64,000 bases of DNA from contig CP003083.1 in the NCBI GenBank assembly GCA_000306725.1, forward strand, positions 2,716,042-2,780,041, given 5' to 3'. The position numbers were made by a program, and so were the translations under genes. The stretch's first letter is position 1. Each line of letters starts with the position of its first letter. Source of the DNA: Methanolobus psychrophilus R15 (GTDB lineage Archaea; Halobacteriota; Methanosarcinia; Methanosarcinales; Methanosarcinaceae). Below, piece by piece: positions 32,424 to 34,802 of the stretch. Under the pieces are notes generated by a model. That model was not told where the DNA came from. It did not search any database and saw nothing but the letters and a program-made list of their open reading frames with translations.

Positions 32424-32657
32424 TTATAGTCCTAGTTCCTGTGCGATTTCTTGGAATTCCTTTCCTTTCTCAGTTGTCATATAGAGGCTGTCCTTCTTCT
32501 CTATAAGCCCCTTTTCTTCTAACATCGTAAGGTATCTGTTGACAACCTCAAAGTTAAGGTTTGCACGATAGACTATGTGGGTTTTTTTTGCTCCCTCCAT
32601 GGCAGCTCTTAATATTTCCACGCTGATGGCAGTTCTACTTCTTCTGATATGAATCAC
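32424..32657 (-). CDS. Small winged-helix DNA-binding protein (HTH_45-like)
   Basis: A 77-residue protein from a GTG at 32657: IHIRRSRTAISVEILRAA is the first helix, HIVYRANLNFEVVNRYLTMLEEKGLIEK the recognition region, and LYMTTEKGKEF the wing. This matches small archaeal single-domain winged-helix regulators. The GTG is chosen because it overlaps the TGA of a short open frame ahead of it as GTGA, a classic coupled junction. The open frame continues upstream to 32723 as a different reading. Confidence 0.85.
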   Translation of the reverse strand: MIHIRRSRTAISVEILRAAMEGAKKTHIVYRANLNFEVVNRYLTMLEEKGLIEKKDSLYMTTEKGKEFQEIAQELGL

Positions 32658-32824
32658 ATCTCCGTTTGGATCAACAATCTGGAGTAAGGCTGAAGCTGAA
32701 CAATGTATTGCTGATAATTGCAATGGTAGGCGATACTTTTTGTAAGGCCTTCCACAGGAGCATTGGGTCGGTTTGCAACATCGTGCATATTCTGTAAAAT
32801 GATGGTCTCATTGCCTCTGTGCAT
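32654..32824 (-). CDS. Possible small gene coupled to the winged-helix gene
   Basis: From an ATG at 32824 the frame gives 56 residues (start MHRGNETIILQNMHDVANRP, then a segment with AYHCNYQQY) and ends in TGA overlapping the GTG of the next gene. The frame is open back to a TAA just before 32878 and reads like real protein (IAGIYHNFEM upstream). I do not recognise it. It could be the remnant of a larger gene, possibly from a mobile element, or a small regulator of the winged-helix gene. Confidence 0.35.
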   Translation of the reverse strand: MHRGNETIILQNMHDVANRPNAPVEGLTKSIAYHCNYQQYIVQLQPYSRLLIQTEM

Positions 32825-33142
32825 TTCAAAGTTATGATAGATCCCGGCTATCTGACAAATGATAACAAGACCCTCACTTTACGCCGCCTTCCCCACTTAT
32901 CCCGGCCAATACCCTTCTTCTAATCCCGTAGAGTATATGGAATTTAATCTAATAAACAAGTAAGAATCTTAGTTACTTATTATATATAAGAAACAAAAAT
33001 ACATTCATACTTTTTTGAAATTAATAAGGATATTGCCTGTCCTGTCCGGGCTTTGAGAAAAGCACATGACGGTTGGAATACATCAGGGCTTTTCTCCAGG
33101 CGCAACGGGGTAGGTATATAAAACTAAAAGGAACATGTAGTA
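32825..33142. other. Gene-poor AT-rich stretch with an inverted repeat and a TATA box
   Basis: GAGAAAAGC (33055-33063) and GCTTTTCTC (33088-33096) form a perfect 9-bp inverted repeat around 24 nt. A TATA box, TATATAAAA, lies at about 33115-33123. I see no protein gene here. Confidence 0.5.
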
Positions 33143-33303
33143 TTACCACCAAGTCTGGACTTGGTCAGGCATCGCAGGTGTGGTCTTGCCGGTGGCAATT
33201 ACCTTAAACAAAAAAATTGAACCTACAAAAAAGGAAACAAGCGTCTGTTCCCACGCCTGTTTCCCAACTCCATGTTTCGCAGTAAGGTGGTACTTGGTGG
33301 TAA
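33143..33303 (+). ncRNA. Candidate structured RNA of about 161 nt
   Basis: TTACCACCAAGT (33143-33154) and ACTTGGTGGTAA (33292-33303) are a perfect 12-bp terminal inverted repeat. Inside are a perfect 8-bp hairpin ACCAAGTC/GACTTGGT (33148-33165), TTGCC/GGCAA (33186-33198), and GGAAACA-GCGT with ACGC-TGTTTCC (33233-33264, one mismatch). The first hairpin overlaps the left arm of the closing helix, so the two are alternatives. A TATA box 20-28 nt upstream puts the transcript start at the first base of the closing helix. An 88-codon open frame from 33180 crosses this region but looks non-coding. A miniature transposon is the rival reading; no clear target duplication is visible. Confidence 0.5.
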
Positions 33304-33455
33304 CTATATCGATCTCTGAGATATCTCAGGACAACACTGACCACCAGATTTTATTTGTCTCATGTGGCAATAAATGGATAAGAAGCATTACTGCTGAAAA
33401 GAGTTACATTTTCCAATATGCTATGCAACCAAATAAGACAGCCTAAAAAAGTCCG

Positions 33456-33484
33456 CATGGCATTGTTTTTCTTACAGTGCCATG
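33456..33484 (-). terminator. Hairpin after the 33499-33726 gene
   Basis: CATGGCA (33456-33462) and TGCCATG (33478-33484) are perfect arms with a 15-nt loop, 15 bp past the stop of the minus-strand gene. It lacks a strong T-run, so its role in termination is only likely. Confidence 0.4.
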
Positions 33485-33498
33485 AACGTCACATCATA

Positions 33499-33726
33499 TC
33501 AGAGTTTCTTCAGTGCTGATCTTGCAATATAATTAGTTACCAGGGTATATACGAAGATGATGATCCCAAGCCAGAGCAAAGGCTCACCGATCTCATATTC
33601 AAGATAGGAAAGTGCAAGTCCGGAACTTAATATCAGCAGATTGATCCTTATCAGTTTTCTGTTCCTGTAAAGAATCGCAATGTTCTTTTGTTTTTCCTGC
33701 ATGACCTGTTTTTTTTCTGTTTTCAT
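33499..33726 (-). CDS. Small membrane protein of unknown function
   Basis: About 75 residues: a Lys/Gln-rich N-terminus, then two hydrophobic helices (INLLILSSGLALSYL and LLWLGIIIFVYTLVTNYIA). The start at 33726 is set by GGAGG 8 nt upstream; the frame extends to a TTG overlapping the end of the upstream gene. It is probably co-transcribed with the threonylcarbamoyl-AMP synthase gene. No family recognised. Confidence 0.65.
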   Translation of the reverse strand: MKTEKKQVMQEKQKNIAILYRNRKLIRINLLILSSGLALSYLEYEIGEPLLWLGIIIFVYTLVTNYIARSALKKL

Positions 33727-33752
33727 TTTTCTTTCCTCCAGTTGTTCTGTTT

Positions 33753-34802
33753 TCAAACTTTTATGATCGAGCCGGCTGCTTTACGTATCCTGTTACTGAC
33801 GGCTTCACCGATGCCGTGGCGGCTGAAAGAACCGTCAACGAGTATAATGTCCACACCTCTTGCATCCAGGGAACGCAGTCCTGAGAATAAGTTGAAGGCC
33901 AGTTCAGCAGGCTTGTCCTTGCTACCCAGTGAGAGCTGGTCATCCTGATGGATGGTCATATTGCTCTCGTCCGTTAAAAGCAGTCCTACTTTCACTCCTG
34001 CGGATTCATATGTCTTAAGCATCTCCTGTATCCTGCGGGCTACGTTGGCACTTGCTCCTTCGATGAGTATCACGGTTGCATCGGGCGCATAGTGTGTGTA
34101 CTTCATTCCCGGGGAACGGACAGCTGCTGAGTCCGGATGACTCCCATCCATATATCCTGTTGTTATACTCCCTATCTCCTTCTCTATATCCTCCCGGCTT
34201 ATCCTGCCGGGTCTGAGTATGGCAGGTACCTGCAATGTCATATCTATGACTGTTGACTCCAGGCCTATCTCTGCGGTCCCGCCATCAATAACTGCATCTA
34301 TCCTACCGCAGAGGTCTGAAATGACGTGCTGTGCGGTTGTAGGGCTTGGCTTTCCGGAAAGGTTGGCGCTGGGGGCCGCGAGGGGCTTTCCTGACACCCT
34401 TATTATCCCGAGTGCTATTTCGTTGTCGGGCATTCTCAGGGCAACTGTACCCAGCCCGCCTGTTGTCACATCAGGCACGATTTCCTGTCTTTCCAAAATA
34501 AGCGTGAGAGGGCCGGGCCAGAATTTATCCATAAGCTTAAAGGCTTTCTCAGGGATATTACGGGCAAGCTCGCAGCATTGCTGCTTTGAGCAGATGTGCA
34601 CTATGAGAGGGTTATCAGCCGGCCGGCCCTTTGATTCAAAAATACCCCTCACAGCTTTTGCATCAAGTGCATTAGCTCCCAGACCGTAGACCGTTTCAGT
34701 CGGGAAAGCCACCAATCCCCCATCATCAATGATGGCTGCAGCTTCCTTTAAAGTGTCATGGAAGTTGCTTTTATTGATGGGGAATATTCGGGTTCTTGTC
34801 AT
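33753..34802 (-). CDS. sua5: Threonylcarbamoyl-AMP synthase (Sua5/YrdC)
   Basis: Makes threonylcarbamoyl-AMP from threonine, bicarbonate and ATP for the t6A modification of tRNA. The YrdC domain is clear: GGLVAFPTETVYGLGANA, KGRPADNPLIVHI, and ALRMPDN with SAPSANLSGKPSPT. The last 120 residues, from PGMKYTHYAPD on, are the Sua5-specific C-terminal domain, so this is the long Sua5 form (349 aa). The gene stands alone upstream of a small membrane gene. Confidence 0.96.
   Translation of the reverse strand: MTRTRIFPINKSNFHDTLKEAAAIIDDGGLVAFPTETVYGLGANALDAKAVRGIFESKGRPADNPLIVHICSKQQCCELARNIPEKAFKLMDKFWPGPLTLILERQEIVPDVTTGGLGTVALRMPDNEIALGIIRVSGKPLAAPSANLSGKPSPTTAQHVISDLCGRIDAVIDGGTAEIGLESTVIDMTLQVPAILRPGRISREDIEKEIGSITTGYMDGSHPDSAAVRSPGMKYTHYAPDATVILIEGASANVARRIQEMLKTYESAGVKVGLLLTDESNMTIHQDDQLSLGSKDKPAELAFNLFSGLRSLDARGVDIILVDGSFSRHGIGEAVSNRIRKAAGSIIKV

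Follow-up and report, generated by a model that had tools for sequence, protein, structure and literature searches.

The 64-kb stretch of Methanolobus psychrophilus R15 DNA analysed here (64,000 nucleotides, referred to as the window) contains an RNA gene on the minus strand, and the case for RNA-gene status of positions 33227 to 33350 is strong. The evidence consists of conservation, synteny, strand, covariation in the terminator hairpin and a promoter-like layout, all established by computation; from these we infer actual transcription, the exact ends of the RNA, pairing with mRNAs and mRNAs as its targets. At a probability of about 0.55, the gene specifies an independently transcribed intergenic small RNA (sRNA) of the genus Methanolobus, the C-rich segments of which would most likely pair with mRNAs. 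The features considered are the following.

33369-33386, minus strand: predicted promoter GCTTCTTATCCATTTATT, comprising a GnTTC upstream element, N7 and the TATA-like TTTATT (layout in 34/34 copies)
33227-33350, minus strand: small RNA gene, predicted transcript of ~124 nt (conserved family; ends predicted)
33340-33346, minus strand: UGGUGGU, the 5' arm of the closing helix, close to the predicted 5' end (inverted repeat, predicted fold)
33306-33337, minus strand: internal hairpin of the 5' domain, containing CUGAGAUAUCUCAG (predicted fold)
33295-33301, minus strand: 3' arm of the closing helix, ACCACCA (repeat, predicted fold, cross-pairing test)
33284-33294, minus strand: C-rich segment AGUACCACCUU, left unpaired by the predicted fold (proposed as the seed)
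33233-33264, minus strand: terminator hairpin P1 (covariation and strand test)
33227-33232, minus strand: TTTTTT run after the hairpin (sequence)
33499-33756, minus strand: gene of a conserved 85-aa protein, the syntenic neighbour upstream and not part of the RNA (12/12 loci compared)

Layout and folding of the RNA

Promoter of its own and discrete terminator, the two marks of an intergenic sRNA gene, are both predicted. The RNA, which should run from ~33350 on the minus strand, carries UGGUGGUC on its 5' side. Its 5' domain, with UGGUGGU:ACCACCA as the predicted closing helix, is followed by another ACCACC that stays free, a covarying hairpin and the TTTTTT run. Predicted lengths are ~124 nt in the window and ~122-163 nt in relatives. 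For the 124-nt minus-strand RNA, a fold of -44.3 kcal/mol was predicted (z -4.2), and none of 300 shuffled sequences folded equally well. Alignments of relatives revealed conservation of the hairpin 33233-33264, of the stretch 33284-33302 and of ACCACCA at 33340-33346, which is UGGUGGU in the RNA. A CCAC motif is present in 34/34 copies of the family; the 5' GGTGG is found in 23 of them.

P1 showed covariation far above the shuffled control. Own-minus-others values of -6.1, -6.5 and -7.4 kcal were obtained for three groups of copies, compared to shuffled means of -3.1, -2.8 and -2.5, respectively. The closing helix is almost invariant among main copies, and cross-pairing indicated a weak preference for the own partner (70 of 5000 permutations equally good for the upstream copies, 60 of 5000 for all 34 copies). 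In the two main groups, 1485 and 2387 of 5000 permutations were as good, and the test is uninformative there. For the inner hairpin of the 5' domain, no covariation beyond the shuffled control was detected. The 34-copy sets omit G014, the core of which is identical to that of G008.

Two further elements were considered and rejected. A long-range pseudoknot between the bases after GGTGGT and a downstream segment, hinted at by a few genomes, gave cross-pairing P values of 0.29, 0.53 and 0.80, and 0.055 for all 31 copies, a set from which G008, G013 and G018 are also omitted. A two-quartet G-quadruplex motif occurs in clade 1 and is not kept in clade 2.

Distribution and genomic neighbourhood

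The RNA family was detected in 25 of 27 Methanolobus genomes, G005 and G015 being the two without it, with 35 copies including tandem paralogs. Elsewhere in the class, 210 genomes (of 237 searched) gave nothing at E≤0.001. These numbers derive from sequence model R2, which was built from 34 copies and matched 35 places at E 6.4e-9 or better; since the model was made from copies that it then found, the positive hits are not independent, while the negatives in other genera are. R2 matches at E 0.004-0.05 occur both within and outside the genus. When 60 genomes, the own genome included, were searched at the DNA level, eight had matches, all from Methanolobus. A model of the 3' core read on the plus strand, R1, gave ten clear members, and its weak hits in G012, G019 and G023 proved to be real by synteny; the other nine of the 12 weak hits among the matches listed had no synteny support. 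Divergent members were identified by reading the stretch beside the gene of the 85-aa protein, and a second tandem copy is present in ten genomes.

The location of the RNA gene is well conserved. It adjoins the 85-aa gene and Sua5 in 25/27 genomes of the genus, and all 12 loci compared are flanked by both. The 85-aa gene itself is present in 95 of 111 genomes of the family; its product showed no Pfam match. Genes downstream of the RNA vary by clade, a winged-helix (wHTH) gene and SufC being found in one and a 515-aa protein in the other, which makes a leader of one particular gene unlikely. In clade 2 (L105, L106, L107), a secreted-looking protein of ~500 aa and one of ~137 aa take the place of the Suf and wHTH genes, and a conserved motif containing a TATA sequence is located between the second RNA copy and the gene of the ~500-aa protein. 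At L134 (G007), the interval from the RNA promoter to the 85-aa gene contains a stretch of ~200-250 bp with long inverted repeats at its ends, resembling a small mobile element. In the window, the winged-helix (HTH_45) gene occupies 32424-32723 and is preceded by a strong TATA sequence, TTATATATAAT, on the minus strand at ~32975-32990. Clade-1 genomes have a recognisable counterpart of the TATA-like box near 33115, together with ~60 nt to its left (33045-33122); this box may be a promoter that reads toward the wHTH gene on the minus strand, or one that drives an antisense RNA on the plus strand.

By Rfam, the family is new, although the kind of RNA is known. Searched against Rfam 15, the window had nothing that reached gathering scores, and 32750-33600 gave no match even up to E=5; nine loci of relatives were without a match near the gathering score. 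In a dRNA-seq report on M. psychrophilus R15, 195 intergenic sRNAs are described, among them nine conserved cold-induced sRNAs with a 'cold box' upstream of the promoter (PMC5378194). The minus-strand RNA may already be one of these 195. The nearest precedents are sRNA154 and sRNA41 of Methanosarcina mazei, described as masking ribosome-binding sites (PMC5867862). Both are likewise encoded by intergenic genes, in an archaeon of the same family, and the likeness is one of description; the Methanolobus RNA family differs in that it was not found outside its genus at E≤0.001.

Strand of the RNA and the 12-bp inverted repeat

The strand was deduced from several properties of the copies. In P1 hairpins of 34 copies read on the plus strand, 35 A.C mispairs were counted versus 8 G.T (binomial p 4e-5, a value that overstates independence as the copies are related). 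Such an excess of A.C over G.T is expected if the RNA is encoded on the minus strand. Counted by copy, 19 voted for minus and two for plus, with 13 ties, and the upstream paralogs as well as both clades agree in direction. Folding compared to shuffled sequences pointed the same way, with a mean z of -3.57 for the minus and -2.48 for the plus strand, minus being better in 28/34 copies; the predicted start of G025u, one of the 34, was set wrongly in this comparison. Each of the 34 copies examined has, ahead of the RNA on the minus strand, the promoter layout GnTTC-N7-TTTAT or a close variant. Of 24 main copies, 23 have TTTAT 28-31 nt before the 5' GGTGG or, in a few cases, before a variant of it; this count refers to main copies only, as the spacing was measured to stand-in motifs for GGTGG in most upstream copies and in G025, G002 and G018. 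T content is high on both sides of P1 (0.47 on the right side on the plus strand versus 0.52 on the minus side), and the T run alone thus does not fix the strand.

A first-pass annotation had assigned a structured RNA to the plus strand at 33143-33303, with a TATA box setting its start and a 12-bp helix closing it. That a conserved structured RNA is located at the site was borne out, but the proposed strand, start, end and closing helix found no support. The coordinates overlap the RNA gene, but miss the 5' end of the RNA (33304-33350) and include ~80 nt beyond the terminator. A TATA-like sequence, TATATAAA, does occur at ~33115. The repeat is real, TTACCACCAAGT at 33143-33154 pairing with ACTTGGTGGTAA at 33292-33303 in 12/12 positions. 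It is nevertheless a chance-level repeat: the 64-kb window has a single perfect inverted repeat that reaches 12 bp or more with its arms no further than 160 apart, and shuffled sequences contain 0.7 on average (maximum 3, 30 shuffles); the chance of such a repeat in one pre-chosen 800-bp region is ~1%. The helix also falls outside the minus-strand RNA. A search for its arms in relatives, proposed in the same annotation, revealed the left arm to be complete only in the genome of the window, partly retained in G022 and G016, and mostly absent in G011. The distance between the TATA sequence and the hairpin differs widely among relatives.

The alternative 8-bp hairpin attributed to the left arm is present as a repeat (33148-33155/33158-33165), but its arms are only 2 nt apart and therefore unable to close as 8 bp. 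The idea that this hairpin and the 12-bp helix form mutually exclusive folds found no support, as the sequence involved is neither conserved nor within the RNA. The inner hairpins do exist, the important one being 33233-33244/33253-33264. A miniature transposon, raised in the annotation as something to check, was rejected: the sequence is single-copy in its own genome, and relatives contain one locus each with one or two tandem copies.

Alternative readings and possible function

That an RNA with mutually exclusive folds is read from the plus strand, beginning near 33143, is very improbable. The arms exist, the ten clade-1 genomes retain the TATA-like box near 33115, and one compensatory-looking change was noted in G016. 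Against these observations stand the chance level of the 12-bp repeat, the lack of conservation of segment 33143-33230 in alignments of relatives, and both strand tests, mispairs and folding z, which favour minus; the plus-strand fold of 33138-33315 reached a z of -2.1 and was equalled by 6 of 200 shuffles. An untranscribed DNA element, in which GGTGGTA repeats form an array of protein-binding sites, would account for repeats that are direct as well as inverted and variably spaced. It appears quite unlikely, since covariation of the hairpin and the strand bias of its mispairs are what is expected of an RNA, and promoter and terminator are arranged in fixed order. The RNA could also be derived from the 3' untranslated region of the 85-aa gene or act as an attenuator of the downstream gene, given that it is located on the same strand ~150 nt past the stop codon of the 85-aa gene and always next to this gene in the loci compared. 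Promoter-like sequence of its own in every one of the 34 copies and the differing downstream genes argue against this possibility, which is regarded as unlikely.

The main rival accepts the same minus-strand RNA, but assigns another task to it: the repeated ACCACC and GUACCCCCAACG segments would bind and titrate a protein. CsrB is the comparison for such a protein-titrating sponge RNA. Two or three C-rich repeats in several upstream copies, at least two CCAC motifs in 27/34 copies, and the lack of a clear mRNA target fit this proposal. On the other hand, a candidate protein did not emerge, and in main copies there is often only a single free repeat. Protein titration is accordingly given a minor, though appreciable, share of the probability.

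The preferred reading, pairing with mRNAs, assumes that the minus-strand RNA is made from its own promoter and ends at the hairpin terminator. With the 5' domain closed by GGUGG:CCACC, one or two more C-rich ACCACC segments would remain open between this domain and the terminator. Their most likely partners are G-rich mRNA stretches, probably close to ribosome-binding sites, and pairing would alter translation or stability of these mRNAs. Even where upstream copies no longer have the 5' GGUGG, ACCACC is retained, which indicates that it is not kept only for folding and argues for a job in trans. Searches for targets gave a less clear picture. For the 19-nt motif, the own genome contains no other site at three or fewer mismatches, and no extended target was found. 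GGTGGTAC or GGAGACAA shortly before ATG occurred in counts modestly above those of a reversed control, and these were partly coding-looking. Ribosome-binding sites in the window (52 ORFs) resemble GAGG/AGGTGA, not GGTGGT, which, together with the lack of a long target, speaks against a simple anti-RBS role. Several genomes of the genus each contain a number of occurrences of the sequence GGTGGTACGATATG, which is probably coding.

In its widest form, and put forward tentatively, the interpretation is that of a genus-specific, tandemly duplicated sRNA family with repeated C-rich seeds (ACCACC, GUACCCCCAACG) that has diverged into paralogs of two types next to a single conserved gene pair and would either regulate translation at multiple sites or serve as a protein sponge. 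The test of strand by hairpin mispairs can overturn a plausible reading by eye. It is uncommon for the family, strand, ends and conserved seed of an archaeal intergenic sRNA all to be defined. Here, the RNA is found in nearly every genome of a genus, with paralogs to compare, and its short candidate seeds are testable in culturable methanogens.
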